This document shows, piece after piece, positions 1,961 through 54,958 of a stretch of 64,000 nucleotides of DNA. The first letter of the stretch is position 1; each line of letters opens with the position of its first letter. The stretch spans positions 372,001 through 436,000 of the forward strand of contig NW_024465777.1 in assembly GCF_017591425.1 (NCBI RefSeq), read 5' to 3'. Origin of the DNA: Ochotona curzoniae (taxonomy: Eukaryota > Chordata > Mammalia > Lagomorpha > Ochotonidae). A program made the position numbers and the translations under genes. Below the pieces are notes generated by a model. The model was not told the DNA's origin. It made no database searches and saw only the letters and a program-made list of their open reading frames with translations.

Positions 1961-4900
1961 CCCATGTGAGAGACTTGAGCTGGGCTAGTTGGCATCTACC
2001 ACTGCTGCGCACAAGGGATAGGGCTAGAGGGCCTACCTGGCAGGGATAGACCACAGTATCCTGCAGTGAGTGTCAGAACAGGATATCGGCTGGGCCATGA
2101 CACTAAACAGCATGTGAGAGAACCAGACCTGGGGGAAGATTTTGTGGGAAATATGTGGGATTACCCCTGAGGGAAAGCCATATTCACTGGTTTATTCAAG
2201 AACTGGTGGTGGTGATGGGCTTAGCTAGGCATGACCATGGAACCCTCTGACACTCATGGGTACTGGGGTTGGAATAAGACAGGCTGGTACAGACTGCAGC
2301 ATGTGTAAGTGCACCCAAGAATTGGGAGTGGGGTGAAGTGGGCTGCAACATCCACCAGCATGCATAAGGCCATGACAGAGGAGAAGGTAAGGACCTAGCA
2401 CTGGGTGGCACACGTGAGATCTGGCTCTGGGAGTGGGTCTTGTCGGGAAACTTAGGGAACTCACTTCCTTGTTGGGCCGTAGCTCCTGCTGGTGAGCATG
2501 TGATTCAGGCCTGGGTGTTGGTCATGTTAGGCAGGGTGCTTCACAGGTCAGCAAGTGTATGGGTTGGCCCTGGTGGGAGTAGAGGGAATCAAGCAGGGCC
2601 AGGCCAAACTGTAGCACACTGGATTGGGGTGTGTGCCATGCTGGGTTTGGCTATCACACCTATCAGGCGGCATAAAAGCCAGGGATGGGGGAAGACTGGG
2701 CATAGAGCTAAGATGCAGTGATTATCAGCAAGAGTTGGGACTAGGTGCTCGCCAGACCAGGCCAGGCTGTAGCATCCAATGGCAAAGGCCAAGATGAGGG
2801 ATGGGCTATGCTAGGTTGGGTCAGAGCAACCACCAGCATGCACAAAACTTGTGGCTGAGAGGGGACCTGGTCAGTGAGCTAAGTTTTGTGGTTCCCAATG
2901 ATAAGTACAAGAGCAGGAATGGAGGTGTCAAACTGGGCTGGACATGATTGCAGCATCCCTTGGCATGTGTGTGGACTAAATTTTGGATGTGCCAGACTGG
3001 GATAAGCTCCAGCACCTGCTGGTGCTCATCAGAGCCAGTGTGGGTATAAGACAGGCTGGGCAAGGTCTTAGCACCCGCTGAACCACATGAAAGCTGAATT
3101 TGGCAGTGGACCAGGCAGAGCTGGGCTGTAGCACTCAACTGTAAGATCTAGAATGTGTGTGGGCCAATTGGGTAAGGCCACTGTATCTGCCAGGGCATGA
3201 GGTGGCCAAAGTCAGCCTGGGCTAAGAATATACCAGTGTGTGTGAGATCTGCAACTAGGAGATGACCTGAGAGAGGAGTTTGGAAAACTCCTTTGTCAGA
3301 GATGCAGTCCTTGCTGATGGGTGCAAGAATTGAGGCTGGGTACAGGAACCAGGGCAGGTGACAGTATCCACTGCCATATATGTGGGTCAGGTCTGGGGGT
3401 GGGCCAAGTCAGAACAGTTCATAGCACCCATTGGCAGATATGAGAACCTGGATTGGGAGTAGGGCAGGATGGATGGGGATACAACACCAACCAATTCATG
3501 TTAGACCTGGGACTGGGGGCTGGCTTGACTAAGTTGCAGCACCTACCAGCATGAGCTAGAAACTGGGGGCAGGCAGGACTGAGTCAGGCTGCAGCACCTA
3601 TTAGTGAATGCTCAGGTGAGGCAAGCTATTCCAGACTGTGCCATAGCTCCCACCAGCACATGTAAGACCCGGGATGTGGCAGAGGGGTGTAGGAGCAAGC
3701 CAAGTAGAGGAGCTACTGCTGGGGCTCCTCTATTGGGCACTGCTCCTTCCGCTGAGTATGAGAGTTGGGACTGAGGGAAAACCAGGCTGGGCGGGGATAC
3801 AGCATCTGCTGGCCTGAATGTAAGCCAGGTTAGAGAGAGAGTCAGGTCTGGTAAGTGACTATATGCGTTGGTACATGCATGAGCCAGAGTAAGAGCATGC
3901 TGGTTGGATTTTGCTGCAGCATTAGCTGGCAAGTGTCAAGAATGAGGGCAAGTTCCACAGACTAGACTGCAGAACCTCCTGGAAAGTGCAAGATTCAGTG
4001 CTGGGAGTGGGCCTAGAAGGGAAAACATGGGCAACCTTCTGATAGGCTGTAGTTTCCACCGTTGGTCATGACAACCAGGGCTGTGGAGTGGCCTGGCTGC
4101 ACAGGTGGTTGCACCCACTGGCCTAAGTATGGCCTGGATAGTGTGGTTGGTTAGGCTGAGCTAGATTTTAGCACTCACTGATGTGTACAAAATCCGAATA
4201 GGATGTGGGACAGACTGGACCAGTCTACTCCAGATACTAACATGTACAAGAACTGGGGCTCAGGGTAAACCTGGTGGGGATTACTGGGGGTTGTTCCAAT
4301 CAGACTGCATCTCCTTTTGGTGTACATGAGGGCTGAGATTGTGGTGGGTGACAACATGAGCTTTGGTTTGTGTAAGAGATGGGACTGTTGACATAACTGA
4401 CCAAGCAACTGCAACCACCACTGTGTGTATAGGCTGAGGTGGGTGGCAGACTGACCCAGACACCACACTGGTTGGCACACAGAGTCAGGTCTGCGGTCAC
4501 CTCTGGTGAGGTTTCTTTGGAGAATCCCCTAACTGGTCTGTTGAACTCAGAATTCCAACCCTGGGGAAAATCACTTGATCTGTGGCCTGATTTTGGAGTG
4601 TCTGTGACAGAACAAGGTTTCTTCAGTTGCTGAAGCCTGCGTAGTGGACAGCATGTTCAGATGTACATTGGGGATGTGACAGATCATTGAGCCCTGCAGA
4701 GGATATCTAGTACCATGTGAGAGGTGGCAAGAACAAATTGGATAGCTCTCCCCATCAAGCTTGGATAGCAAGTATCTGGGTAAGTGGAAATTCTAAATGG
4801 ACTGTATCAGCCAGTGGACCTTAGAAGGATTTTCTCCACAAATTCAACAAAGATAGGGAGCAAGGCCAGTTCCTCCACAGAGATTGCACTAGTTGCTCCT
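1960..4900 (+). mobile_element. Old L1-like 3' body, degenerate short tandem repeats
   Basis: About 2.9 kb of diverged units of roughly 50-70 bp built around phrases such as 'gctgcagcacc...accagcatg...agacctgggactgggg'. The last 300 bases (from about 4515, 'tttctttggag', to 'cagccagtgga' near 4811) align to 31008-31085 of the better-preserved plus-strand copy. The A-rich 3' terminus is missing. No ORF above about 105 codons is present. It belongs to the same family as the minus-strand copies elsewhere in the window and looks like the oldest of them. Confidence 0.55.
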
Positions 4901-7149: not shown

Positions 7150-8425
7150 TGGACCTGGTCAGTAGCTTAGTGACTAAAGTCTTCACCTTTCACTTGCTGG
7201 GATCCAATATGGATGCCAGTTTGTGTCCTGGCCACCCCTTTTCCCATCTTGCTCCATGCTTGTGGCCTGGCAAAGCAATCGAGGATGGCCCAAAGCCTTG
7301 GAACTCTGGCTTCTGGCTTTGGATCAGCTCAGCTCTGGCCATTATGGCCACTAGGGGAGTGAATGAGCAGATGGAAGATCTTCCTCTCTGCCTCTCCTCC
7401 TCTGTATATCTGAATTTCCAATAAAAAGTAAATTTTTTAATGCTTAAATTGTTTTAGATCTTTAAAAGGAAATTATGTGATGGAAGTTTTACTCCAGTAG
7501 ATAAAACATACTAATATGTGGATTTGGGTTTCAGCTTCAGTTCCTGACTAACTCTTAAAAAGGCTTGTGACCCTGGATATCAGTGATGAATACTTAAATA
7601 ATTGGATTCTGTCACCCTGTGGGAGACCTGGCTTGCATTCCTGAATCCTGGCTTTCTCCCCAGCCCTCCCCCCCTGGTCATACGGGCATTTGGAGGAGTG
7701 AATCAGTGAGTGGGAGATAGTGTGTTTTCTATATCCTTTTCTCCTTCTCCCCTCCTCTCCTCTGCCTCTCAATTTTAAAAAGTGTATATATGGAGATTTA
7801 ATGCATCAGTTAAGATGCCTCTTGAAGGGCTGACACTATGGCACAGCCAGGTAAGCTGTGATCTGAAGCACCTGCTACCTATATAGCTGCTAGTTGAGTT
7901 CTTGCAGCTCCACTTCTGATTCAAACCCCTGGAAATGTTCCTGGGAAAGCAATGGAAGGTTTCTTGGGTTGTAGGGCATTTGCCACCCATGTGGGAAATC
8001 AGAAGAAGCTCCTGGCTTTAGCCTGGTTCACCTGCAGTCATTGTGGCAATTTGGGGAGTGGATCAGCAGATGGAAGATCTCTCTCCCTTTCTGTGTTCCT
8101 CTTCTCTCTGTGTGTAACTCGTCTATCAAGTCAGTCAATACATTCTTTTAAATAAGTGTTTGCTGAGACACCTGCATCGCATATCAGAGTGCCGGCATTT
8201 ACGTCCCAGTTTTCTTACAATTGCAGCTTCCTAATGTACTTTCTGAACTGTGGCAGGTGATGGTTTAGGTACTGTGTTTACCCAGGAGATCAAGATTAAC
8301 TTATAATCAGGTCTCAATTTGGCTCAGCTTCAGTTGCCACAGGTAGGAGAATAAGCCTTCATATTAGCAATATACATCTGTGTCTCTCTGTCTCTTTGCC
8401 TTTCAAATTAATATGATTTTTGTTG
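7150..8425 (+). mobile_element. Cluster of four C-type SINEs (plus strand)
   Basis: Approximate bounds are 7150-7440, 7470-7790, 7820-8160 and 8165-8425. The first is closest to a pika-style consensus: 'gggatccaatatgg', 'ggcctggcaaagcaatcgagg', 'tcttcctctctgcctctcc', then an A-rich end. The last three have counterparts at 39000-39905 and 60400-61300, so they were in block X before the array duplicated. The first has no counterpart I can see and is probably younger. Confidence 0.75.
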
Positions 8426-8429
8426 TTGT

Positions 8430-10095
8430 TGTTTTTTGGGCTTTTCTTGTTTTTTGATATATATATGTTTTTATTATATTTTGACAATCCTTACATATTT
8501 AATTAGGGTAAAAAAGGTTCAAGGGCTACAGGGAAGTGGGCAAGACCATCACTTCCCTACCGCTTCCTTCATGTATCTGAGGTAAAGGGGGATATAGAGG
8601 AAGAAACCCCACCCAGTTTCCCACCCATCCTAAGTCCCGGATGTGGGGCATGCTCTGAGATACTCGATCAAGTGGTTCCAATAATTCACCATTCATGGGT
8701 CGCTGCCAGTCTCGCCACTCCAAGCACGATGTGGTCGTTGAAGAGTCCATTGATTGACACAGTCCCTTCTAGAGTCTCCATTTGCCCAATATTTTGCTGC
8801 CAACAGATAGCTGAGGTTGTTGATTGACTTGTTCTGTCTTTTCTTGGTTAGGACTCTGAGTCCGGTGTCTCGACTGGGAAGATCCTCAAAGAAATTTTGA
8901 GGTATTCCCAGTCCAGATTCCTGCATGTTCTAGCAAGTATAAGACCCGGCACAGCCCATCGCCCCGATCAGCTGGTGGTTGCAGATGCTGGGTCGGTTCT
9001 GTCTCCATCCATGTCCTCCACTGGAACCAATGGGTGTTACGGTCCGGCCTGGTTCCACCCTGGACACACTTGGCCCTCACAAAAACCAGTAGGAGCTGCA
9101 GCCCAGTCAGGGTGGCCCACAGTAACCCCAACTGGGCCCACCCCCTACCCTGGCTTGCCAGTATGTATGGCAGACTAGTCCAGTCTGTCCCACATTCCCT
9201 TCTGCTCATATACTTGCCAACGGGTGTTGCGACCTAATTCCATCCAACCATCTCATCCAACCAGCCTTAACGGATGTTGTTGGGTGTCTGTCTAGCCACC
9301 CCAGCCCCTGTCCTAGTTCCCTTGCCCTCCCGTGAAAGGTGATGACCCAAGAGGGAGAAGCCCACTATTTCCTTCCCAGGTCGCTCCCACTCCAGTTGTG
9401 CCCTCTCCAGTTGGCCCTGTGGTTCAACTAGACATGACTAGCCCCCTGTACCAGCTTCCACCAGCTGATGCTATGACCAAGCCTTAACAACCCTCACCTA
9501 CTCTGATTGTAGCTTGCACCAGTGGGAATAGTCAGCCCAGCCTGGTTTTCACCCAATCTGGTCCACATGAGGTGCGCAGGTGCTGTAGCCCTGCCTGGTC
9601 TGGTCTACCCCCTACCCAGCTCACGCTCCTCAATGGAAGTAGCTGTTCAGCTAGGGAACCACCCCTTATTCCCCTGCCAGCTCTGCCTCCTCCCTTCCTG
9701 ATTCTCACATGTGCTGGTTGGGGTGCTGCGGCTGTATCCGGCTCAGGTTACCTCACCTTGGCATTCCAAATTGTGTATTGCTTTTGTCACAACCGGACCT
9801 GGTTCGACCCATACTCTGTTCTGGCATTCGGATTTACCAGTGGATGACTTGAACTGATTCAGCCTGGTCTGCCCCCGAACCATGCCTGCCAGTGGACACT
9901 TTCCATGACCTCTTGGCTGTTACCTTCCATGTTTCTTGTGCTGACCTGTAGGGTCTGTGTCCTGCCAGAGGAGTTGCCCGGGCTCCTCCATCAGAACCCC
10001 TCCAAGTGCCAGGTTTCGTGCCTGCCAGTGAGTCCATGTGCCAGTTCGCCTCCTGTCCTAGCAGGAACAGTGGCCTTTCCTAACTGGCCTTCATC
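8430..10095 (-). mobile_element. 5'-truncated L1-like element with the repeat-type 3' body
   Basis: On the minus strand it ends in an A-rich tail (plus-strand T-rich 8410-8455). The 3' end block at 8460-8750 is shared with 45600-45900, 50880-51190 and, in reverse, 31090-31376. The 5' edge at about 10095 is a truncation. Block X in units 2 and 3 lacks it: the SINEs that flank it here (8165-8425 and 10095-10430) are adjacent at about 39905 and 61300. It therefore inserted after the duplication, or those sites predate it. No coding region. Confidence 0.65.
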
Positions 10096-10735
10096 CCATT
10101 CTGGTTTAATTTGTTTGAAAGGTAAAGTGGTAGAGAGAGAAAGACTAAGAGACAAAGACAGAAAAGGAGCTCTGCCATCTTCTGGATCACCCCACAGATA
10201 AATATAACAGCCATAGTTGAACTAGGCTGAATCAAGGGTCAGAAACTCCAGCCAGGTCTCCCAGTGTGTACAAGGGTCCATGTGTTTGGGCCATCAACAG
10301 TTGCCTTCCCAGATGTGTTAGCAGGGATCAGGTTTGAAGCAGCAAACCAGGGCTTCAAATAAGTGCTGCTCAGATGCCAGAGTTGCAGGCCAAAACTTAA
10401 ACCATTATGCCACAATGCTGGTCCAAAACATGTATTTTGTCTTCATGTTATTGGAAAGGCATAGATTGAAGGACTTCTTCTATTCATTGATTCATTTCCC
10501 CAAAACCTGAAGCATAGGGGACTGAGCCAGACAAAAAGCCAAAGTCCAGAATTCAAAATGAGTCTATAGGTAACAGGGACGAATTGCTTGAGCCATCACC
10601 TGTCGGTTTTTAATAGGCCAGAATCAGGAGCAGAGATGGGACTCAAGTACAAGCACTCCCTTTGGAATGAGGTTGCTGCATGTGCTGTGTTTACTATGCC
10701 AAACACAAATGTGTCCTTCATAACTGGCTTTAATT
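10095..10735 (-). mobile_element. Two minus-strand C-type SINEs
   Basis: Copies at about 10095-10430 and 10440-10735, seen as tttgaaaggtaaagtgg...agagagaaagac and ending in 'acaatgctggtcc'. They correspond to 61305-61660 and 61690-61975 upstream of the gene in unit 3, and the first also to 39905-40195. This fixes block X as the sequence directly 5' of each gene. Confidence 0.65.
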
Positions 10736-11045: not shown

Positions 11046-11194
11046 CATTTTTCTGAGAATCAGAGAAGTAAAGCTCTGTGCTCAAGGTCTCAGAGCAGGA
11101 TGTGAATCCAGGGCTGAGGGGTCCAGCACCTGTGTTCATCCCTGAAGGAGGTGGCATGTTCTAATGCCAACTTTCCATTATGTTTTCTGGTTAT

Positions 11195-11422
11195 CAGTAG
11201 GCCACTCAACCACCTGTGCAGACACATGGTGCAGGGAAAGCTGTATACTTCATTGGCTGTCATTTCTCTATATGCAGGGGGTGGGAACTATGGTCTTAAA
11301 TATAAGATACCAGATGTTCCACCATCTATTCTGGGGCTGGACCCTAGTCTGGCCCTTTCTATCTGCTGTTGCCCTATGTAAGAGTGCTGGTTCCTTTTCT
11401 CCTTCCCTTCTTCTTCAAACTC
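11195..11422 (+). promoter_or_regulatory. Proximal promoter of the intact CELA3-like gene
   Basis: A TATA-like TATGTAA lies at 11375-11381, 42-48 bases before the start codon; the unit 3 gene has TATATTA at the same place. An E-box CACCTG at 11211 is followed by GGGAAA at 11234, the two half-motifs bound by the acinar factor PTF1 in elastase promoters, but with wide spacing and inverted TC-box orientation. A GATA-type TTATCAG at 11191 is kept in all copies that retain this region. The assignment is inference from motif and position only. Confidence 0.4.
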
Positions 11423-14400
11423 ATGATGCTCCGGCTGCTGAGCTCCCTCCTCCTTGTGGCCCTGGGTAAGCCCCCAACCCAAGTCTGCGTTCCCTGTGCT
11501 ATACTGGGCTGAGAGCCCTGAAATCTGTTCCCCATCCTGGGTCCTGTGACCCAACACCTGCTTCCATAGAAGGGGTCTCAGCATGTATCTGGGGCACAAC
11601 AGTAGGTTCTTTACGCTTGGTGCTGGGGAGAACAGAAAAGAAAGCAGAAGATGGACAAGTCCAGGAGAATCAGGAACAGCACCAAGCGCTGTGGAAAGAG
11701 CCTTAGTTAAGGGAGGACAAAGCTTCATGGTTAAAATCTGGCCTCCCGACTATATAGGTGGAAGTTTCACTCCTCTGCTGAACTAATTCTCCACTCACAC
11801 TCCCTCTACCTGGCCCCATAGCCTATAGTTGAGCCTTGCCCTGGTCTCTGCCACATGAAGTTGCAGCTCTGTGCCCTCTCCTGTGACAGTTTCTCCTGAC
11901 TTAAAGTCATGGTAACATAATATTTACTGAGTGCTTATCATATCACCAAAGAATACTGTGAGAATTTTGTATATTATCTCATGCATTCTCATCATAACCA
12001 TACAAAGTCAGTATTATTGTCTGTATTTTACAGACTAGCACACTGACCTCAGAGAAGTAAATTAGTTCATCTGATAACAAGGGGTTGGGCTGTGTTCTGA
12101 ACACAGGAGGTCTTATTTCAAGTCATCTTCTGAAAACTCAAAATATTTACTGATCTTTTTTTTCAGAGAGAGAAAGAGAGACAGACACATATGCCCCTCC
12201 CTCAGGTTACTTTCCTCACTGAAGCCGGTAGTCAGGGGGGGCTGGGGCTCCAGCACTGGGGCCATCATTTCAGCATGCCAGGGCTCACACTGAAGGGAGC
12301 TGGATCTGAACACACAGAGTCAAAGCACAGACCAAGCACTTGGTGTGGACTGTGGGTGACTGACGGGCTGTCCTACCACAGCACCAATGCCCACCCCAAA
12401 GCCTCCACTCTCGGGGACAGCAGCCAGCAGTGGGAGAGGGATCCTTGTCTCAGACTGTGTGAAGTGTCACCCTCCTCAGTCACTCCATTTACTGAGGCTG
12501 CATTTTATCTCCATCCTTGGACTCCTGGGACTCAAGAAAGCCCTGTTGTAGTGCCAATGCTCACTTCAAAGGTGGCTGCAGAGGGTCAGAGAGCAAAGGG
12601 GCTTGCAGGGGTAACACAGCCTGTTTGGTACTCTGGGACTTGAATCCTGCCCTGCTTTCCTGTTGGGGCCCCTGTGGCTGACTGATGTCCACCTCTCCTC
12701 TCCATCCTTCTCCTTTGCTCTCCTCTCTAGCCACAGGCTCACACCCACCGATCTACAACCCGTCCAACCACTTCTCCAACCCCTCCAGCCGTGTGGTCAA
12801 TGGCACTCCTGTAAATCCTACCAACAAGTATCCCTGGCAGGTAAGAGCAACCCCAGCTGCACTGACTCCCACTGTGTGCTCTAGACTGCATGCTCTGATT
12901 GCAAGGTCTCCAGTTCTGACCCCACAGCAGCCTTGACTTATGCTTCCTAGGTTCTAGAAACTTAAAACAATCAGCTTCACACAGAGATTTTATGCATGCC
13001 ATCTACAAACCTCACTGGGCTGTTGGCAAATTAGAGTGATCTAGGGTCCGGGGACATCTTAAACAAGCAGCTGATGCAGTAATAGAAGAATTCAGGCACT
13101 GTGCAGAGGCACAGGTAGGATCTAGTTCCAGTTCCTTGAGGCCCACAGCAGGGCTCTGAGTTCTGGAGCACAGAGTGGAGAATTGGATCAGGGCAGTGGA
13201 GGGCAGCACCTAGGGCGAGGCTTGCTGTGCTGTGTAGCACAGTAGCCATTAACACATGGGGTATTTAAATGCAAATTAAATAAATTCAAGCATGTCCAAC
13301 ATTCAATCCCTCTGTGCCAGCCACATTTCGAGTGACTAAGAGACACATGTGGCCAGTAGTTCCCACCTTGGACAGCAAAGGCTGAGCACATTTCCATAGC
13401 TTAGAACGCTGTCTGAGGCAGAGTCAGGAAGCGTGTTCAAGGAGGGAGCAGAGAGTGAGTGCTGTAGCCCTATCAGCCACATGGCTTCTCCAGCACTGAC
13501 TTAGCCCTGCCACTGCAGCAGGAAAGCAGCCAGAGAGCATGTGTGCCTGAGTGAGTGGCCTGTGTGCAGTCAGCATCTGTGCACACAGACCACAGCCAGC
13601 CTGGCAGCATGGAGCAAACTTGGCCAACCTTGGTCTCCAGGGAGATATTGAGAATCTGAATGAGTAGAAAAGGAGAATGGAGGCAAAGGAGTCAGGACGA
13701 GTCATACTTTAGAACATCCAAGGGTCCTGGGAGAGCTGAGATGCAGGAGAATAGCAGACTTAGAAAACAGAAGTATTTAGGGGCTGTCAGTAGACAGAAG
13801 GTTTTGGAAATCCCTTGAAGACTGAGAAGGGGATTCCTCAGGGAGATCACAAGCACTGGGATGGAAATACCAGAGACCACAGTGATCACAGAGGAAACTG
13901 GCAAAGGCTGCATTAGAACATGGGCAAGTTGCGTAGTTACGACATATGCACTAATCCTCACTGTGGGCTTTGATCTCTCAGACTGCACACCCCTGCCACT
14001 TCTCCAGGTCGCCCTTGCATATGAGGAGAATGGTTATCTGTACATCATCTGTGGTGGGTTCCTCATTGACACAGACTGGGTTGTGACGGCTGCTCATTGT
14101 ATCATGTGAGTTCTCCTGTGGTTCCCCTCCTAGTGCTGATGTTTGTCTCTATGACACCCATACAACCTGGGGCAGTGGATAACTATGAGAACAAGACAAT
14201 GAAGGGCAGATTGACTTTTCTTTCTCTGGCAGTAATGAGAGTGTAACATACTGGGCACTATTGGGTGTGTATGACCTGTCGGCAATACCAGCAACTGCGC
14301 AGTTTATCCCTGGTCAGTACATCGTGCACCCAGATTATGATGAAGAAGATGCGTCCAAAGGGTGAGTAAGCTCCCAGTCTGGTACCAGACTCCTGTGTCC

Positions 14401-17400
14401 TTCCCTCCATGACACACAGTTCATCTAGGAGACTCCTAGGGACAGTGGGGAGGGTGAGCAATGTGGGCCCACACACTGGACAGAGCCTTAGAGACCAGCA
14501 GCATCAACCTCCCTCCCTGTACAAGGGACAGTAGACCCAGGGAGACTTAGGAAGTCCACCAGCACTACTGGGCTCAGCATCTCTGGAGCCAATGGCCCTT
14601 CCGCAAGTCCAAGGTGTCCTGTGCTCAGCAGATGTTCCTCCAGCACAGACTGGGTTCTTAACTGTTTATGCAGAGGAGGAGTCCTGGACTGAGAGTCAGG
14701 CTGTTGGTGTCCCTGCCTGAGTGTCTTGGGCAGTAAGTGCCCTGTTCTGGGCCTCAGGATTCCACTTGTCAAGGTGATGCTGCAGCAGGGCTTCCTGGTG
14801 CTGGTGATGGTCAGGGAGGCCCTGCTCATTTCTCACCTATGTACATACCTGTGTATACACTTGTGTGACCAGGGTCTTAGTTTTCTCTGGTGAGATCAAG
14901 GAGAGTGCATAACCATCATAAAAGTACTATGGAAATAAGAGACAATCCTGAAGGAACTCCATTCCATCATCACAGGTCATCCTGGGGTTGTAATGAGGCA
15001 CGTTAACTCAGGTAATATGTCCTAAATGACAGCAGGCAGAGCAGCGGTCCCTGAAGTGTGGGCTGTGGAGCAGCAGTACTAGAGTTCCCTAGAAACCTGT
15101 GAGTAATGTCAGACCTCAGGCCTCAGCCATAAATGTTCTCAGAATGCCTGTGCCAGATCCCTGAAAGGTGTGTGGCTTTAATATTTTAACTTATGTATTA
15201 ATGTGTATTTGCTTGAATGAAAGAGAGACACAGAGAGAGATACAAAGCAAGACAGAAAGCCTATCTTCTGGGCCCTACCCAAGTGCACCGAAGCTGAATA
15301 TTTTTTAAGTCTCCCAAGTGGGCAGCTAAAATCTAAGCCTTTAATCATCACCTGCTAACTTAGTGGGCACCTTAGCAGGAAGCTGGAAAGGAAAGCTGAG
15401 CATGGTCTTGAACCCAAGCACTATGATAGAGGGTATAATCTCTTAGCTATTATGCTCAATGCACACCATAATTAGAATCAGAACACCTGTGTTTTCATAC
15501 AGCTGGACTGTGAGAACTACAAGCAGACACTAAGGACAATTAATATGACCAAATATTTCCAGGAGGGGAAGGGATGGGGGTTTTGGGAGTCTGCTTTGTG
15601 TTAAAGCTGGATTTGGGGGCATAGGAGCAGATGAGATTACCAAGGTTTGACTTTGAACAATGGTCTGGGATGGACCTGGTCCAGTTGGAGAACCAGGCTA
15701 CAAAGACTCTTCTCTCCCCACAGCAATGACATTGCTCTCCTCAAACTGCTGTGGAGTGCTGAGCTGACAGATGATGTATACCCGGCCTGCCTCCCTCCAG
15801 CTGGCTACATCATTCCCCATGAAACAAAATGCTACGTCACTGGCTGGGGTGCCATCTCCAGTATGTATTCACCAGGGAGAGTGGGAGAAAAACAAGGTCT
15901 GATGGTCAAGGCCAGTGATGCAATGGTGCATGAAACATGCATGATGTGGGGATGGTGGAAGGAGAGTCCACCTTGGATTTCAAGAGCTCTAGGCCTCAAA
16001 TGTTCCACTTCCTAAAACCTACCCATGCCACAGACACATGTGCATTGTTCTCTGTCCCTACAGCCAGTGGGCCATCCTCAAGTATTCTCCTGGAGGGGCT
16101 GCTGTGTGTGTTGGACCATGAGCACTGCTCTCAGCCAGACTATTGGGGTAGCAACGTGAACAAATGTCAATTGTGTGCTGGCGACTGTGGAGCCTCTGCA
16201 TGCTATGTGAGTCTGTTCACCCTTGCCATGGTGGAAATTGTGCGGGTGTTTCTCTGCCATCTCCATGGAGGTGGAGGAGCTATATTCTCTGTTAGCCCCA
16301 GTCAGATCCCAGGCCAGGCAGGACCTGCAGAAAACACAGCCACATACCCTAAATCCTGGCCCAGCTCACAGGCTCCCTCACCTGGGACCATCACTGTCCC
16401 TCCTCCTGCTCAGGCTTCCCCAGCAGCACAGCAGGGACACTCGCACCACCATCTGGAGTCACCCACTCTCTGGCTCTGCAGGGATCCTCAACCACTGTGC
16501 TGTGGCAGCTGAGTCCTCCTAGGCAGCAGGGAAGGTGCTGCCAGCAGGGGGCGCTGGCGTCTCTCGGGGCTCCCTCTGTGCCAGGGGCTGTGCTGAGGGC
16601 CTGTGTGGGTCCCTTCCTGCTCAGCAGCTGTGGTAGCACAGACCCTGGTCCTGGCCAGCTGAGGCCCTGAGGCTGGGAGAGATGCAGCAGTGTGGGTGTG
16701 TCTGCAACCCCCAGGTCAGGGGCAATTCCTTCCAACTGAGACGTGGCTCAGTCCCCACTTCTCTGTCCATCACAGGGTGACTCTGGAGGACCCCTCAACT
16801 GCCCTGGATTGACTACTAAGTGGCAGGTTGATGGCATAGTCAGCTTTGGTTCTGGCTATGGCTGCAATTACCCAAAGAAGCCCACGGTGTTCACCCGAGT
16901 ATCGTGCTTCATTGACTGGATTAAGGAGGTAAGGATTGAACAACTCTCCTGTGAGGTACAGGGGACAGGGAGGAAGTTCAGATCCTGGTGAGGGGCAGAA
17001 GGGATCCTAGAAAGGCAGTGGGGGAGGGGCTTGGGGACATTACCAAGGGTCTTGGGGATGTGTTTTGCTCTGTGCAGCCCCAGGACTTCACAGGCTATGG
17101 ATGGAGGCTTTGCACTTCTAATTTCATGAGGGGTTCTCAGTGTGTCCTCTGGTCAGATCTTCATCACAAAGAACAGAGGGATGCACAGCCATCTGGTAGA
17201 GGAGACATTTAATGAGCAATAATGCTAATGGATGGTGAGATCTATGGTGCGGGAAGCTGAGAATCAGCATCACCTTGGAACAGGTGATTAGAGAGAGTTA
17301 ATACTGCCCATGATATCAGAGTGCCCACCAATTAGAGGTCACTCAGGGACAGTAATAGGAGCCTTAATTCACGGTTTAATCCTACTCCATAAGGTGAATA

Positions 17401-21559: not shown

Positions 21560-23180
21560 AGAGATCTGTGCTACACAGGTGCACCAGGTCATCGCCTGAC
21601 TCTTATGTGTGCCAACCAGTCCAAGGTCAATTTCATTCTGTCACTTACACCAGCCAATGCACATTTTTGGTGGATTCAGCTGCCTATTCAGTTCCACTCC
21701 CAGCCCCAAATCTCAGGCAAAGTGATGGATGCTTGTCCTTGGCCTAGTCTTGATGCATACCAACAGGAGCCATGGCCTAGTTGAGGTGACCCCAAATAAC
21801 CCTCACCAAGCCTACCCCCAGCCAGAATCTGCTGGGGTTTAACCCAGTCCATCCCAAATTGTATCTGGCTCTCAGGCACACCCATGGGTGCTGTGGCTTA
21901 GCACAACCCATCTGCCCCCACACCACACTTATGCCAATGGATGCAGCCGCCTTGACCAGCCTGGTCTGTCAACAGGAGAGTGCTCACAAATTCCTTAGAA
22001 GGCCTGCTCCCAGCCCTGGATCTTGTGCCTGCCAGGGGGCACTGTGGTCCAATTTGGCATAACTTGCACTCTGTCCTAGCACTCTCCAGCAGGTATGTGG
22101 CCCAGCCTGGCTGAACCATACTCATTTTTTTCCTTGAGTCAGCAGGTGCTACAACTCAGCCCAGTCCAGTCCATCCCCAGAACTGGCCTACTCACTAGCT
22201 GATGCGTGCTGCAACCCTTCCTGGACCACCTCACCACCAGTCACAGCTCTCATGTTCAAGTGAGGAAGCAGTTGTCCAGTAGAGGTGTCACTGAAATTTC
22301 TCTGCTAGGTTTACTCCCAGCCCCAGGTCTTACATGCAACAGCAGGTGCCGCAGTTCAGTCAGAGATGGCCCACCCCAGTCTACAAATTCACCAGAAGAT
22401 GCCACAATTTGGTTTAGCTTGGTCCACCTCTCATACCAGCTTAGTATAGCAAATTAGCCAAGCCAGGACCAGCCCCAGCCCTCAAGTGAACTGGCAGGTG
22501 TTGCAGTTAAACCCAGTTGGGCATGAACTCCATTCTGGCTCTCATTTGAGTTAATGTGTACTATGGAATGATCAAGGATGGTTCACCCCCAGACGGGGCC
22601 CACATGCTAACTGATGGGTGCACAGCCATACCTGGACCTGCCTGCCTCCAGTCAAAGCTCTCATGCTCATCAGTGGAAGCAGTGCCCCAGCAGAGGAGTA
22701 CCCAATGTTCCCTTACCAGACTCACCTGCAGCCCTGAGTCTTGCATGCAGCAACGTGATATAGCCCAGTTTAAGATGGTCTGCCCCCAGACTTGGCTTTC
22801 ACAAGCAGGTCCTACAACCTGCTCAACTCTGCCAGTCCCCAGTTCCAGTTCCCACCAATGAATGCAACAGCCTAGCCCAACCTGGCTTACTGCTAGTCCT
22901 CATGTGAACTGGTAAGTGCTACAATCTAATCCAGCCTGGTGCACCCCATCTTGGCTCTTGCTTATGTCCAGTATGTTGTGGACTTCCCCAGCTTCCTTTC
23001 CCCGACCCCACCCATGTGCCTGGCCTATTTGTTTGCCAATAGGTGCTGTAGCCTAGCCTGATCTGCCCTGTGCTCTGCCATGGCAGTCACATTCACTAAT
23101 GGAAGCTGTGCCTAGCACATATGACATAACCCAATGTGACACAACACCAGGCCAAGTGATTATCACTTCTATAATCTCTT
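21560..23180 (-). mobile_element. Old L1-like repeat-type body, minus strand
   Basis: On the plus strand it reads as complement-orientation units ('gccagtccaaggtc...', 'tgcaacccttcctggacc', 'gtcttacatgcaacagcaggtg'), like 8900-10000 and 51300-52700 but more diverged. The characteristic 3' end block is absent. No ORF of note. Confidence 0.5.
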
Positions 23181-30004: not shown

Positions 30005-31376
30005 TTTGTAACTTACTCAATTTATTTTGAATCTGAGCACCAGCATAGACTGTGGGTCAGGCCAGTTTCGGTCGCAACACATAACAGTGCATATGAAGGA
30101 ATGCCAAGGTGAGGTAAGCTGTACCAGATGTGATTGCAGCACCCAAACAGTACACATGAGACCCAGGAGAGCAGGGGAGGAGGCAAAGCCAGCAGGGGAA
30201 TGTGGGCTCCCCTGCTGGACAACCACTCCCATTGGAGAGCATGAGTTGGAATGAAGGCAGACCAGACCAGGCAGGGCTACAACACCTGTGGGTTTCATGT
30301 GAGCTAGACTGGGGAAGGGCCGGATTGGGTTGACTGTTCTGACTGTACAAGCAAAAATTAGAGTGGGTGAGTGTTGGTGGGCTTTGCCACATCATCAGAT
30401 GGCAGAGACTGGCACTGGGGGCTAATTCTGTTAAGTTAAATGCCAGAACCATCTGGAGAGTGCATAATCCGGAAGTTGGAGTGGCCTAGTAGGAAGATAG
30501 TGGGCACCTCCCTTGTGGGTTACCCACTCCCACTAGAGAGCACAACAACCAGGACAGGGGCAGGGGTGGCTAGACAGAAAGGCCCCTGCCAGTATGTGTG
30601 TGGGCTGGATAGTAGGTTGGTTGGGTTGAACTAGGCTTCAATGCCCATTGACAAGTACAAGAGCTAAATGGGATGTGGGACAGACTGAACAAGTCTGCAG
30701 TACATACTGGCATGCATGGGAACCAGGCTAGGGAGCAGGCCTGGTGGGGGTTATAGGGTTATGGGGCGTCGCCCCAACTAGGCTGCAGCTCCAACTGGTT
30801 TGCATGAGGACCGAGTATGAAGTGTGTAGGATTGAGCTGGACTACAACACCCATTAGTTCAAGTGGAAGATAGGGCTGGAAACAGAACTGACCCAGCAAT
30901 TGCAAAGACCAGCATGTGCATAACGTGTTGATTGAGGAGACATACTGTGCTGAACTCTGTACTGGCAAACTCACACAAGAATCAGGTTTGGGGTCATCTC
31001 AGATGAAGTTTCTTTGGAGCTACCTCCAACTGAACTGCTGATCACAGAACCATAACCATGAAGAAACTATGTCAGCCAGTGGATTCTGAATAGGTTTCAT
31101 TGCGATTGGAATGGCAAGATTGGCAGCAATTCAGAACTGTTGAACTATCAAAACTGCTTGAGCAGGACCCTGGGAGCATGCCTCACATCGGGGACTGGGG
31201 CTGGGTGGGAGGTTGGGTGGGGCTTTTCCCTTTGTTTCTCTCCTGACCCCAGATACAGGGGAAAAATTATATTAGTGTGGAAACAATGGTATAACCCACT
31301 TTCCTGTAACCCTTGACCCTTTGTACCCTAATCAACTAAGTAAGATTATTACATAAATAAATAAATAACAACAACA
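30005..31376 (+). mobile_element. 5'-truncated L1-like element with poly(A)-type end, plus strand
   Basis: This plus-strand copy shows the 3' terminus directly: 'cccttgaccctttgtaccc', 'taatcaactaagtaagatt', then 'acataaataaataaataac' and an A-rich end at 31376. The body carries the short-repeat phrases (e.g. 'caccagcatagactgtgg', 'cccattgacaagtacaagag'). It is the best guide to the family's 3' end. Confidence 0.65.
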
Positions 31377-31394
31377 AAAAAGAGATTTGGTGGA

Positions 31395-42410: not shown

Positions 42411-43320
42411 GCAGTGGTTAGCCTGCAACCACACATGAGGGAGGCAAAATGGAGTTCCAGGTTTCTGGCTGTTGCCTGTTCAAATCCTGGATTTGGGGGC
42501 TGTATGGGAAATAACCCAGCTGATGGAAGATATCTCTGTGTGTGTGATTTCTGTCTTTTTTACAAATTTTTATTTTTGCTGATATTTAAATGGTTAATCA
42601 TGGTGGGAAGATTTGAGGGCTAGGAGAAAGTGGGTGAGACCATTGTTTCCAAATTTTGTTTTTCTTTTTCCTGTATCTGGGGGAGTGCAGAGATAAGGGG
42701 AGAAGCCACACCCAGGCTCCCAACCACCCCAGGAGGCAGGTGTGTGGAACAGCCACTGTTATCAACCCCGAGTCCCCAATGTGCGGCATGATCCGAGGGT
42801 TCTGCTTAAATGGTTTTGGAAGTTCTGAAATGTGGTTGTCTCAGTAATCCAAGGATGAGGAAATCCTCCCAAGGTCCATTGACTGATAACAGTTGAGTTT
42901 AGAGTCTCCATTCACCCAGATATTTGCTGTTATCACTTGGTTGGGGGTAGTTGTCCAATTTGTTCTGCCCTCCTTTCTCTGCTATTGTACCAGATGCCTT
43001 CTGCATGCCTCGATGTACTGCCATATCCTCTGTGTGCATTTGGGCCTGCCATCCACTGCACAGTCTTTTCCATTGTGGAGGCCCAGTTCTGAACACGCAC
43101 TCTATGGTCAGACCACCAATCCTGGATGTGAACCCTCATGTCCCTACACACCCACAACTGTACCATCCCCCAGATCCCATGCATGCCCACACACCAAGCC
43201 CCAACAAGCGAGCGCTGCCTGGCCGAGGCCCCAGTGGACCTCATACCCCTGGGGCTCACAGACCCATCATTCCCCCATACATCTTTAGAGAAATAAATAG
43301 AATAGGCTAGGTGACTATGC
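42410..43320 (-). mobile_element. SINE fragment, then divergent L1-like 3' end
   Basis: 42410-42560 is a plus-strand SINE fragment. From about 42560 the sequence has the L1-like 3' block in minus orientation ('ggctaggagaaagtgggtga', 'gtgcggcatgatccgaggg'), parallel to 45640-45800. It then has a body (42960-43310) that differs from the other copies and ends in 'agagaaataaatagaatagg'. Confidence 0.5.
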
Positions 43321-45600: not shown

Positions 45601-45604
45601 ATTT

Positions 45605-47365
45605 TATTATTATTATTATTTTTCAATCTTTACATAATTAGGGTTAAAAGGTTCAAGTGCTACAGAAAGATGAGCAAGACAATTAGTTCCATATTGTTTC
45701 CTTTATATATCTGATGTAAAAGGGGATTTTAAGGGAGAAGCCCCACCCAGTCTCCCACCCACCCGAGGCCCCTGATGTGGGGCATGCTCCAAGGGTCTTG
45801 ATCAAGTGGCTTTGATAGTTTAACAGTTCTGAATTGCTGCCACTCTTGCCACTCAAGCACGAAGAGGTTGTTGAAGAATCCACTAATTGACATAGTCCAT
45901 CACAGAGTTTCCATTTGCTCAGTTTTTCACTGCCAACATATAGCTGAGGTGGTTGATTGACTTGCTCTGTCCTCTGTCTTTTGATGGTTAGTGTTCTGAG
46001 TCCGGAATCTCGATTGGGAGGATCCCCAAAGAAACTTTGAGGTGTTCCCAGACTAGATTCTTACATGTACTAGCAAGCACAGGGCCCGGCACAGTCCATT
46101 GCCCCGATCAGCTGGTGGTTGCAATTGCTGGGTTGCTTCTGTTTCCATCCCTGTGTTCCACTGGAACCAATAGGTGCTGCAGTCCAGCCTGGTTCTGCCC
46201 AGCACATACTCGGCCCTCACATAAACCAGTGTGGGCTGCAGCCTCATCAGAGCAACCCACAATAACCCCCACCAGGCCTACCCCCTAACCTGGTTTGCCA
46301 GTATGTGTGGCAGACTAGTCCAGTCTGTTCTACATCCCCTTCTGCTCTCATACATGTCAATGGGTATTAAAGGCTAATTCCATCTAACCAGCTCAACTAT
46401 CCAGCCTTCATGGATGTTGTTGGGTGCCTCTCTGTCTAGCCACGCCAGCCCCTGTCCTAGTTTTCGTGCCATTCTGTGGGGGGGGGGGGTGGTAACCAAA
46501 GAGAGAGGAGCCCACTATTTCCCTTCCAGGCCACTTCCACTCCTGAATTATGCACTCTCCAGGTGATTCTGTGGCTTGGCTTGACAGAACTAGCCCCCAG
46601 TGCCAGCTTCTGCAGCTGATGCTGAGGCTAGGCCCAACCAACCCTCACCCACTCTAATTTTAGTTTGCACCAGTAGGAATAATCAGCCCAGCCTGGCTTT
46701 TCCCTGATCTGGTTCACATGAGGCCCACAGGTGTTGTAACCCTGCCTAGTCTGGTCTGCCCACATCCTAGCTCATGTTCTCCAATGGGAGTAGCTGTCCA
46801 GCAAGGGAACCATGCCCCCATATTCCCCCTGCTAGCTCTGCCCCTCCCTTTCTGGTTCTCACGTGTGCTGGTTGGGTGGTATGGTCACATCCGGTACAGG
46901 CAATCTCACCTTGACATTCCGTATTGTGTATTGCTTTTGTCACCACCGAATCTGGCTCGACCCACACTCTGTTCTGGTGTTCGGATTTGCCAGTGGATGA
47001 AGTGAACTGATTCAGCCTGGTTTGCCCCCGACCCATGCCAAATGTATGCCAGTGGGACACCTTCCATGATCTGTTCTGGGCTGTTTCCTTCCATGCTTAT
47101 TGTGCTTACCTGCAGGGTCTGTGTCCTGCCAGAGGAGTTGCCCAGGCTCCTCCATCAGAACCCCTCCAAGTGCCAGATTCCACACATACCAGTGGGTTCA
47201 TGAGCCAACCCTACTCAGTTCACCTCCTATCCTAGCAGGAACAGTGACTTTTCCTGACTGGCCTTCAACCCATTCTGTTTCTCACTGTTGGATGTTTCAG
47301 TCAAGCCACAGCTCATCCATACCCACATACAGCTCATACATGGCTCAGTTGTGGTTGAGACCTAC
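45605..47365 (-). mobile_element. 5'-truncated L1-like element, minus strand
   Basis: The plus strand opens with a (TTA)n/T-rich run (45606-45624), then the shared 3' block ('ggttaaaaggttcaagtgc', 'gatgtggggcatgctcc'). The repeat-type body runs to about 47365. It is nearly collinear with 8455-10095 and 50890-52370. No coding region. Confidence 0.65.
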
Positions 47366-50821: not shown

Positions 50822-53800
50822 GAATGTTGTTTTCTTTTTTTTTTTTTTCTTTCCTGATTTCTTTTTTTTTTTTTTTATTAATAAATTTTATTTTGACATT
50901 CTTTACATAGTTAATTAGGGTAAGAAGGTTCAAGGGCTACAGGAAAGTGGATAATACTAATATGTTTTCCATATTGTTACCTTCATGTTTAAAAGGGGGG
51001 TATTAAGGGAGAAGGCCCACCCAATTTCCCACCCTCCCCAAGTCCCGGGTGTAGGGCATGCTCTGAGGTTCTTGCTCAAGTGGTTTTGATATTGCAACAG
51101 TTATGAATCGCTGTCAATCTTGCCGCTCCAAGCACTATGAGGTCTTTGAAAAATCCACTGATTGACATAGTCCATCATAGCTGAGATGGTTGGTTGACCT
51201 GTTCTGTCTTCTCTCTTTTCTTTGTTATGGTTCTGAGTCCAGCATTTAGATTAGGAAGATCTCCAAAGAAACTTCTTGTATGTGCTAACAAGTACAGGGC
51301 CTGGCACCGTCCATCGCTCCAATCAGCTGGTGGTTGCAATTCCTGGGTTGGTTCTGTTTTCACTCCCGTCTTCCACTGGAGCCAATGGGTGTTGCAGTCC
51401 AGTCTGGTTCTGCCCAGCACATACTTGGCCCTCACATAAACCAGCGGGAGCTGTAGCCTAGGTTGGAGCGACCCACAATAACCCCAACCAGGCCCACCCC
51501 CTACCCTGGTTTGCCAGTAAGTGTAGCAGTAATCCAGTCTGTCCCACATCCCATTCCACCCCAGCCGCTGTCTTAGTTTTATGTCCTCCCGTGGAAGTGG
51601 TAACCCAAGAGGGATGAGCCCACTATTTCCCTCCCAGGCCTCTCCCACTCCCAGATTCCAGTTGATGCTGCCCAAACAAACCTCGCCCACTTTAATTTTG
51701 TTTGCACCAGTAGGAATAATCCGCCCAGCCTGGCTTTTCCTGATCTAGTCCACATGAGGCGCACAGGTGTGGTAGCTCTGCCTAGTCTGGTCTGCCCCCA
51801 TCCCAGCCCATGCTCTCCTGCGGAAGTAGCTGTCCAGCAAAGGAACCCTCCCTTATTCCCCTGCCAGCTCTGCCCACTTCCTTGCTTGTTCTCAGGCTGG
51901 TTGGGCGCTGCGGTCCCTTCTGGTACAGGCAACCTCACCTCGGCATTCCATAATGTGCACTAGTCTTTGTTGCGACCGACCTGGGTCGACCCACACTGGT
52001 GCCTGGATTTGCCAGTGGATGATGTGGACAGATTCAGCCTGGTCTTGCCAACTGTATGCCAGTGGGTAGGTTTCCATGGCCTTTTCTGGGCTGTTTCCTA
52101 TCATGTTTCTTGCGTTTACCTGCTGGGTCTGTGTCCTGCCAGAGGAGTTGCCCAGGCTCCTCCATCAGAACCTCTCCCAATGCCAGGTTTCACGCTTACC
52201 AGTGGGTCCATGAGCCAACCCTACTCAGTCCACCTCCTGTCATAGCAGGAACTGTGGCTTTTCCTGACTGGCCTTCCACCCAATCTGGTTCTTGCTGTTG
52301 GATGTTCCAGCCCAGCCATGGTTTGTCCATACCCACGTATGGCTCACACATGGCTCAGTAGGGGTTTGAGACCCTGCCTAGTCCATCCCACATCTGCCCT
52401 GGTCCTCCAGAACACCAGGGGGAGTCGGGGTCCGGCCCGGTTCGGTGCATCCAATCCCAGTCCACACTTGTGCCAAGGGAGACTACAACTGTTTCCAGAT
52501 CAGAACGCAGCCCCCTTCCAGGCCACGCGCCTCTTGGTGGGAACCTCAGCCCAGCTAGGGTTGTCCCCTTTGCTCCCCAACCGGGTCCGTTCCCAGGCAT
52601 AGATCACATGCCTGCCAATGGATGCTCTGACTCAGCTTGGCACAACCCCTCCCCTGTCCCGAACTCTGCCTTAGACACTGTGGCTTAGCGTCCAGGCTCC
52701 CACAGACCAGCAGGTACAAGAGCCTAGCTCGGCATGACCTCTGCTCCCTCCTGGTTTCTAGTTTTACTTGTGGGCTAAGGTTTGCTCAGTCGTGCCTAAT
52801 CTACTCTGTTCCATTACCAGTTGACACATTGGCCAACTGTTGGAGCTACTTGTGCAGGGCAAGCCCCAAGCCATAGCTTCTGCATGACTGGTATTTGGTG
52901 CTCAGAATTATTAGTGATTACAAGTTTTGCTAAGGAAGAGTTACTGCCTCTTTCAGGTCCAAGAAGCACAATGGGTTCAACCTGGAGCTAATTAAGCAGC
53001 AACTCAAAGAACCAAATCCCCAGAGCTCCCCAGCCGGGCGGCCAGCAGGCGGAGCCTGGCACCAATGGCGCACTTGCCGCCCGGGGAGGACGGCTCACCA
53101 TGTGCCCATGGCGGCCGTCCGGGATCCAGGCATGAGACGCCCCGTCCTGAGACCCACCAGCTGCCAGGAGGCAGCTGGAGGTTTAAATAACCCAGGCCCA
53201 AGGTCGCGCCCCTCCCAAATCCCATTCACCGCCCCATGAAGGCGGCGGGTGGGCCCGGACCTGCCCAGTCCCGGAGGCCTCCCCCCTCGGTCTACTCACC
53301 CCGAAGGAAGCGGCCCCCGAAACCCAGCAGGCCCGGGGAGGACGGCTCACCATGTGCCCATGGCGGCCGTCCGGGATCCAGGCATGAGACGCCCCGTCCT
53401 GAGACCCACCAGCTGCCAGGAGGCAGCTGGAGGTTTAAATAACCCAGGCCCAAGGTCGCGCCCCTCCCAAATCCCATTCACCGCCCCATGAAGGCGGCGG
53501 GTGGGCCCCGGACCTGCCCAGTCCCGGAGGCCTCCCCCCTCGGTCTACTCACCCCGAAGGAAGCGGCCCCCGAAACCCAGCAGGCCCGGGGAGGACGGCT
53601 CACCATGTGCCCATGGCGGCCGTCCGGGATCCAGGCATGAGACGCCCCGTCCTGAGACCCACCAGCTGCCAGGAGGCAGCTGGAGGTTTAAATAACCCAG
53701 GCCCAAGGTCGCGCCCCTCCCAAATCCCATTCACCGCCCCATGAAGGCGGCGGGTGGGCCCCGGACCTGCCCAGTCCCGGAGGCCTCCCCCCTCGGTCTA

Positions 53801-54958
53801 CTCACCCCGAAGGAAGCGGCCCCCGAAACCCAGCAGGCCCGGGGAGGACGGCTCACCATGTGCCCATGGCGGCCGTCCGGGATCCAGGCATGAGACGCCC
53901 CGTCCTGAGACCCACCAGCTGCCAGGAGGCAGCTGGAGGTTTAAATAACCCAGGCCCAAGGTCGCGCCCCTCCCAAATCCCATTCACCGCCCCATGAAGG
54001 CGGCGGGTGGGCCCCGGACCTGCCCAGTCCCGGAGGCCTCCCCCCCTCGGTCTACTCACCCCGAAGGAAGCGGCCCCCGAAACCCAGCAGGCCCGGGGAG
54101 GACGGCTCACCATGTGCCCATGGCGGCCGTCCGGGATCCAGGCATGAGACGCCCCGTCCTGAGACCCACCAGCTGCCAGGAGGCAGCTGGAGGTTTAAAT
54201 AACCCAGGCCCAAGGTCGCGCCCCTCCCAAATCCCATTCACCGCCCCATGAAGGCGGCGGGTGGGCCCCGGACCTGCCCAGTCCCGGAGGCCTCCCCCCC
54301 TCGGTCTACTCACCCCGAAGGAAGCGGCCCCCGAAACCCAGCAGGCCCGGGGAGGACGGCTCACCATGTGCCCATGGCGGCCGTCCGGGATCCAGGCATG
54401 AGACGCCCCGTCCTGAGACCCACCAGCTGCCAGGAGGCAGCTGGAGGTTTAAATAACCCAGGCCCAAGGTCGCGCCCCTCCCAAATCCCATTCACCGCCC
54501 CATGAAGGCGGCGGGTGGGCCCCGGACCTGCCCAGTCCCGGAGGCCTCCCCCCTCGGTCTACTCACCCCGAAGGAAGCGGCCCCCGAAACCCAGCAGGCC
54601 CGGGGAGGACGGCTCACCATGTGCCCATGGCGGCCGTCCGGGATCCAGGCATGAGACGCCCCGTCCTGAGACCCACCAGCTGCCAGGAGGCAGCTGGAGG
54701 TTTAAATAACCCAGGCCCAAGGTCGCGCCCCTCCCAAATCCCATTCACCGCCCCATGAAGGCGGCGGGTGGGCCCCGGACCTGCCCAGTCCCGGAGGCCT
54801 CCCCCCCTCGGTCTACTCACCCCGAAGGAAGCGGCCCCCGAAACCCAGCAGGCCCGGGGAGGACGGCTCACCATGTGCCCATGGCGGCCGTCCGGGATCC
54901 AGGCATGAGACGCCCCGTCCTGAGACCCACCAGCTGCCAGGAGCGAATGTTGTTTTCT
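50822..54958 (-). mobile_element. ORF-less monomer-promoter retroelement with 14-bp target-site duplication
   Basis: GAATGTTGTTTTCT occurs at 50822-50835 and 54945-54958. Between them, reading on the minus strand: eight GC-rich monomers (54943 down to 53079), a 150-200 bp linker (to about 52860), a 1.9-kb body of short degenerate repeats, the shared 3' end block (51190-50890), and a poly(A) region (plus-strand T-runs 50836-50880). The duplication begins AGAAAAC on the minus strand, as expected for L1 endonuclease. The unit 2 counterpart (34625-34670) is uninterrupted. No reading frame of L1 ORF1 or ORF2 size exists; the longest frames are inside the monomers. It is either an L1 that lost its ORFs (deletion or retrotransposed spliced RNA) or a member of a non-autonomous composite family. 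Confidence 0.8.
53079..54943 (-). repeat. 253-bp GC-rich monomer array (7 full + 1 partial)
   Basis: Unit starts (gcccgggg) are at 53079, 53331, 53584, 53837, 54091, 54345, 54598 and 54852; periods are 252-254, differing almost only in C- and G-run length. On the minus strand each unit holds a GC box (GGGAGGGGCGCG), then a TATA-like TTATTTAAA, then a hairpin with 9-bp arms (CCAGCTGCC, 4-base loop). On the plus strand each has ATGGCGGC, a YY1-like core. It is rich in CpG. The design resembles the monomeric promoters of mouse L1. Apparent ORFs on both strands are artefacts of base composition and unit length. Confidence 0.9.

Follow-up and report, generated by a model that had tools for sequence, protein, structure and literature searches.

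A recently active, ORF-less retroelement family with a monomeric promoter in the pika genome, probably mobilised by L1 in trans

The analysis of a 64,000-nucleotide stretch of the genome of the pika Ochotona curzoniae (contig NW_024465777.1, positions 372,001 to 436,000; hereafter the window, in whose numbering positions are given) reveals an insertion devoid of open reading frames (ORFs) at 50822..54958. It lies on the minus strand and consists, in this order, of promoter monomers, a linker, a body, a 3' end and a poly(A) tail. This unit very probably belongs to a multi-copy family of ORF-less non-LTR (long terminal repeat) retroelements that has been active recently and whose RNA polymerase II transcript would be copied in trans by L1. 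The same architecture is observed at many loci, target-site duplications of their own are displayed by nearly all of those read at length, and older copies of the body are found with no L1 ORFs adjoining.

A multi-copy family of ORF-less insertions

The unit is bordered by a perfect 14-bp direct repeat, the target-site duplication, at 54945..54958 on the 5' side of the element and at 50822..50835 on its 3' side. The monomer array (53080..54944, minus strand, as are all the parts that follow) comprises 7.4 units of 253 bp with 99% matches in a tandem-repeat scan. A linker of ∼228 bp (52852..53079) leads from the monomers to a non-coding body of ∼1.8 kb (51091..52851), a degenerate array delimited by self-matches and by comparison with sister and older copies. 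The 3' end of ∼200 bp (50879..51090), defined by its sequence and by a dedicated search, carries AATAAA-like signals and a G-rich tract (∼51016-51041), and the poly(A) tail (50836..50878) appears by eye as two A-runs with a short non-A stretch between them. The arrangement proposed in an earlier note made from the sequence alone is confirmed, from the 14-bp duplications and strand to the monomer array, linker, 3' end and poly(A). Its description of a short-repeat body holds in part: 16 self-matches were counted within the linker and body, whereas 20 dinucleotide shuffles gave 0-14 (mean 4.7), yet one shuffle (34.0) surpasses their best score (25.4), which makes the internal repetition weak. 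Sequence from the early body matches many places within older copies. As a side observation, the A-tails of the window copy (50836-50878) and of two sister copies (L052 and L058) contain non-A interruptions (GAAATCAGGAAAG, GAAATTGCTCCT and TGT) that are possibly tiny 3' transductions.

The absence of ORF1 and ORF2 claimed earlier was borne out, since human L1 proteins used as tblastn queries left only three rows over the whole 64-kb window (best E 4.1) and no L1 ORF1/ORF2 remnant. Likewise, no reverse transcriptase was found in 20 sister elements, where L1 protein matches are confined to old pieces in the flanks (seven rows at four loci). Rfam returned nothing at gathering level in the window and two sub-threshold matches in one sister locus (L043).

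The earlier note had suggested looking for the linker-body junction elsewhere in the genome as a check for a propagating family. The genome to which the window belongs (2.08 Gb in 1389 contigs) was searched with the linker, giving 2018 candidates, a first-look number rather than a count of verified copies, as for the other candidate numbers below. The best 40 were scored, all at ∼100% over 230 bases; being the best-scoring places, they form a sample biased to young copies. One of them is the window copy, 20 were read long (from ∼6 kb upstream of the start of the linker to 3.7 kb downstream of it) and 19 for ∼700 bases. A single alignment runs through monomers, linker and body in all 20 long-read loci, with 96.6-99.3% identity, and in 19 of them the element extends at least to position 3998, in the 3' end region. 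The 19 short-read loci all cross the junction at 99.1-99.7%, so that the linker and the ORF-less linker-body junction are common to 40/40 scored loci. Given that 18 of the 20 long-read loci also have a convincing duplication of their own, the unit belongs to a propagating family, and an isolated L1 copy altered by deletion or splicing is rejected.

When 206 bases of the 3' end served as query instead, 1991 candidates were obtained, the best 40 of which were scored at 100%. Ten were linker loci already found, and 20 of the remaining 30 were examined; the linker sits at the predicted place above 18 of these, and the other two have no element sequence there. Four of the 40 scored 3' ends, in contigs C1348, C743, C527 and C526, lie 8049-8064 bases from the contig start. 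They may stem from a single duplicated block or from an edge effect of the assembly; in the former case, some of the 18 linker-bearing 3' ends may not be independent.

The monomer number of sister copies varies from 0.66 to 22, and the 3' end falls ∼90 nt early in four of them (L042, L052, L058 and L061). Among 21 copies compared with their majority consensus (the 20 long-read loci and the window), non-CpG sites diverge by 0.05-0.99% and CpG sites have changed by 0-3.5%; the sampled copies are young.

They also bear the marks of retrotransposition. A direct repeat with at least four non-A letters spans the flanks of 18/20 loci versus 18/380 swapped flank pairs, and with at least six non-A letters the figures are 14/20 versus 7/380. 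The first four positions of the duplication are A in 15-17 of the 21 copies and are preceded by T at position -1 in 10 and at position -2 in 13, which describes T|AAAA-like insertion sites, the type preferred by the L1 endonuclease. A-runs close most 3' ends, being unclear in L042, L048 and L061. The copies of this family were retrotransposed.

Promoter monomers and a putative route of mobilisation

Seven TATTTAAA boxes of TATA-like type are found in the window array, among them the one at 54701..54708 (minus strand), and the main cluster of sister-copy starts lies 31 nt downstream of the first T of this box. Across the copies the box reads TTATTTAAA (9/20 loci and the window) or AATTTTAAA (11/20 loci). 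Ten of the 21 copies begin 30-34 nt from the first T (binomial tail 2.6e-12, for an interval picked after the data had been seen). A TATA-type start would explain this main cluster, but not a second one at 2-12 nt.

The following route is suggested by these features. RNA polymerase II would initiate within a monomer, ∼31 nt downstream of its TATA-like box, and the transcript would run through the remaining monomers, the linker and the body before receiving a poly(A) tail. L1 could then supply in trans the endonuclease and reverse transcriptase that copy this RNA into T|AAAA-like sites. Initiation in an upstream monomer would retain the downstream monomers in the new copy, which would thereby remain transcribable. 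In favour of this route, the genome holds L1-type ORF1 genes and an ORF2-bearing L1 end (L088).

Several observations weigh against this reading. Starts lie outside the main cluster in 11/21 copies, six at 2-12 nt and one each at 19, 40, 118, 195 and 219 nt; the window copy itself starts 19 nt from the first T. One long-read locus (L048) ends inside the body, at element position 3625, with no clear tail. Duplications are weak at two of the 20 loci, L049 (8 bp) and L057 (an A-run). A 193-amino-acid frame discussed below is open in 17/20 sister copies, which are too young to support or exclude a gene. Finally, the element and its presumed partner L1 have no sequence in common over the L1 stretches read.

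Older copies, origin and alternative explanations

The body has a longer history than the young copies. At least six older copies of it occur in the window, as seen by sequence comparison, and more in the flanks of seven of the 20 fetched loci. Three are 5'-truncated copies comprising body and 3' end (45603..47362 and 8423..10118 on the minus strand, 30029..31392 on the plus strand), and one is a 3' part alone (42547..42991, minus strand). Two are still older: a longer copy of the body array (1994..4560, plus strand) and a set of body matches (21601..23077, minus strand). In the genome, a search with one of these older copies as query gave 7268 candidates; 40 were scored, of which the window's own older copy matches at 100% and the remaining 39 at 86-90%.

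Upstream stretches of ∼650 bases were read in eight of those 39. In five (L118, L119, L120, L122 and L123), homology with the element goes back to position 2107/2108, i.e. window 52852/52851, where the earlier note had placed the joint (near 52850). Beyond this point four of the five share further array for 140-180 bases and L119 for ∼40 bases. A sixth stretch (L116) matches from 2124, with upstream array in common with L120, L122 and L123, and another (L117) is cut at 2488. In the eighth (L121, C292:2116614-2117264), the end of the monomers and the start of the linker (1776-1919) are represented by a 76% relative, and the body begins at 2163. Two further older copies begin at 2360 (L114) and at 2457 (L115). 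L1 proteins match these stretches no better than expected by chance (best E 0.40 and 0.74), and no older relative of the linker occurs in the window or the 20 loci (best E 4.9). Since older copies continue past 2107/2108 as further array, the body array is older than the present joint. A related linker module would have been joined to the array at two points at least, the second being the single case of L121. AAG is available on both sides of the young joint, which would be compatible with splicing as well as with recombination between repeat units.

Taken together, these data may tentatively be read as the trace of a long-lived, wholly non-coding lineage that did not arise from an L1 losing its ORFs; its array could have been joined to the monomer/linker module at different points (2108, and 2163 in L121), perhaps by splicing, each time giving a new lineage a working promoter. 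The opposite origin, which is possible but rather doubtful, would be internal deletion in an L1 lineage that had these monomers and linker as 5' untranslated region (UTR) and the 2-kb body as 3'UTR, the derivative then being amplified in trans. It concerns where the family came from and is compatible with the mode of movement proposed above. The element possesses two L1-like features, a monomeric promoter of TATA type and a G-rich tract close to its 3' end. The older copies argue the other way: six of the eight continue upstream as array, and ORF2 is not above chance in the 650 bases read upstream of the eight or in L114 and L115. At all 18 places read 2 kb upstream of 3' ends, only the linker is seen.

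The L1s of the genome, for which the comparison covered one ORF2-bearing 3' end (L088) and 12 ORF1 loci, at least ten of them half-L1s, bear on the same question. In the ORF1 search 150 of 11351 candidates were scored, and L1-type frames are open up to 393 amino acids. Alignment to one of the 12 loci (L089) assigns them (L081-L092), or at least ten of them, to a separate half-L1 family made of ORF1, the start of ORF2 and then a 3' end, the latter being reached in common by ten and missed by L082 and L086, which stop earlier. None has the monomers or the linker in the ∼1 kb above ORF1, which counts against an L1 derivative with the reservation that at least ten are half-L1s; more broadly, blastn of the 12 loci against the element, in that 1 kb and elsewhere, returned no match except A-runs in four. 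The ORF2-bearing end consists of an ORF2 C-terminus (61% to human), a stop, a ∼435-bp 3'UTR that includes a G-rich tract, and poly(A). This 3'UTR shows no resemblance to the body. The body as 3'UTR of an ORF2-bearing L1 is accordingly ruled out for L088, the sole such end read (n=1).

A few other matches were encountered around L1 sequence. A more sensitive comparison detected, in one of the 12 ORF1 loci, an older match to the body with the same orientation (L082, E 1.4e-22), starting ∼110 bases below the A-run that ends the half-L1 copy. L082 was set aside as a body-carrying L1 and read, as a judgement from position, as a neighbouring older insertion. Around the L1 pieces at L049 and L056, read for 3'UTRs, sense-strand matches to the body stay within chance (best E 0.2); an antisense match is present in L049 (9474-9615, E 1e-5). 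As for the half-L1 family in its own right, it measures ∼2.4 kb, beginning with a 5'UTR, and is best seen in L089 (minus strand, ∼365-2827), where ORF1 is open over 343 amino acids, the 3' end has a G-rich tract and poly(A), and a 12-bp duplication is visible by eye.

Three other explanations fare far worse. It is very improbable that the family encodes and uses a small protein. The longest ATG frame of the linker-body consensus has 193 amino acids and its openness in 17 sister copies speaks for such a role; against it, the frame has no Pfam match, is shortened in L042, L047, L048 and the window copy (whose longest has 124 amino acids), and copies of this age cannot show selection. Still harder to sustain is a spread mainly through segmental or subtelomeric DNA duplication, for the four 3' ends nearly equidistant from contig starts do suggest a duplicated block, but flanking sequence, duplication, 5' end and number of monomers vary among the 20 long-read loci. 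Finally, a single deleted or spliced L1 copy, a dead end like the SpIREs among which spliced L1 copies are known (PMC5860796, in the part consulted), has practically no chance of being correct and is ruled out by a joint common to all scored loci and by flanks and duplications that are distinct among the 20 long-read loci.

Elsewhere in the window, the plus-strand frames 13819-14109 and 15635-16015 are exon-like and resemble by eye a trypsin-type serine protease. The translations of frames 709-1104 and 11146-11469 are similar to each other, also by eye, and probably represent another interspersed repeat.

Significance and comparison with known elements

The element, which makes no recognisable protein, looks like a recently active parasite that uses the copying enzymes of another element. 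If true, it would constitute a separately built L1-dependent family with L1-style promoter monomers, in which one could ask which properties of an RNA favour its use by the L1 proteins. It would also offer a system for studying how ORF-less elements gain and keep promoters, and it would mean that many such promoter arrays (∼2000 first-look candidates) are scattered across the genome. Pattern scans of viral contigs gave no match, a 17-base pattern occurred in 33 records of prokaryote contigs, which is about the chance expectation, and phages gave none; plasmids gave two matches of 60-69 query bases, in the tail.

Individual features of the element have counterparts in other systems. HAL1 half-L1s depend on L1 enzymes and have their own 5' and 3' ends, as does presumably the pika element, but they keep ORF1, whereas the latter has neither ORF and tblastn found no ORF1 match in the window. 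Mouse Tf and A L1s carry tandem promoter monomers in variable number, with starts inside monomers; these are alike, except that theirs precede ORF1 and ORF2, both absent here. RIME/NARTc and SIDER of trypanosomatids and the R2 SIDEs are ORF-less and LINE-dependent and have ends in common with their partner LINE. The pika family resembles them in ORF-less dependence, while sharing no end with the L1 sequence read here. The likeness to SpIREs lies in L1-like ends around a missing interior; these are generally dead ends according to the part of PMC5860796 consulted, in contrast to a young multi-copy family.

No lagomorph family and no ORF-less L1-dependent family of this kind turned up in the literature searches, which is no proof that none has been printed, and the excerpts of PMC13174262 and PMC12424770 do not treat one. 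The closest parallel is offered by SVA and LAVA of apes, which are mobilised by L1 in trans and, with their relatives, represent the classic example of large elements that encode no protein and exploit L1; they are described as specific to hominoid primates (PMC7353768, in excerpt); new 5' parts spliced onto SVA are mentioned in an extract of PMC6139936. As far as these partial sources go, the pika element is likewise large and ORF-less; it too contains a repeat region, ends in poly(A) and is flanked by target-site duplications, and its mobilisation in trans would be a further likeness. The constituents differ: (TCTCCC)n, an Alu-like part, a 36-49 bp variable number tandem repeat and SINE-R or L1/Alu parts on one side, and 253-bp monomers, a linker and a degenerate body on the other. 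SVA/LAVA-type tandem parts were not found in the element, whose tandem repeats are the 253-bp array and the A-rich tail, Alu-like or SINE-R similarity not having been searched. By analogy, the pika element would work as SVA and LAVA do, but with an L1-style monomeric promoter.

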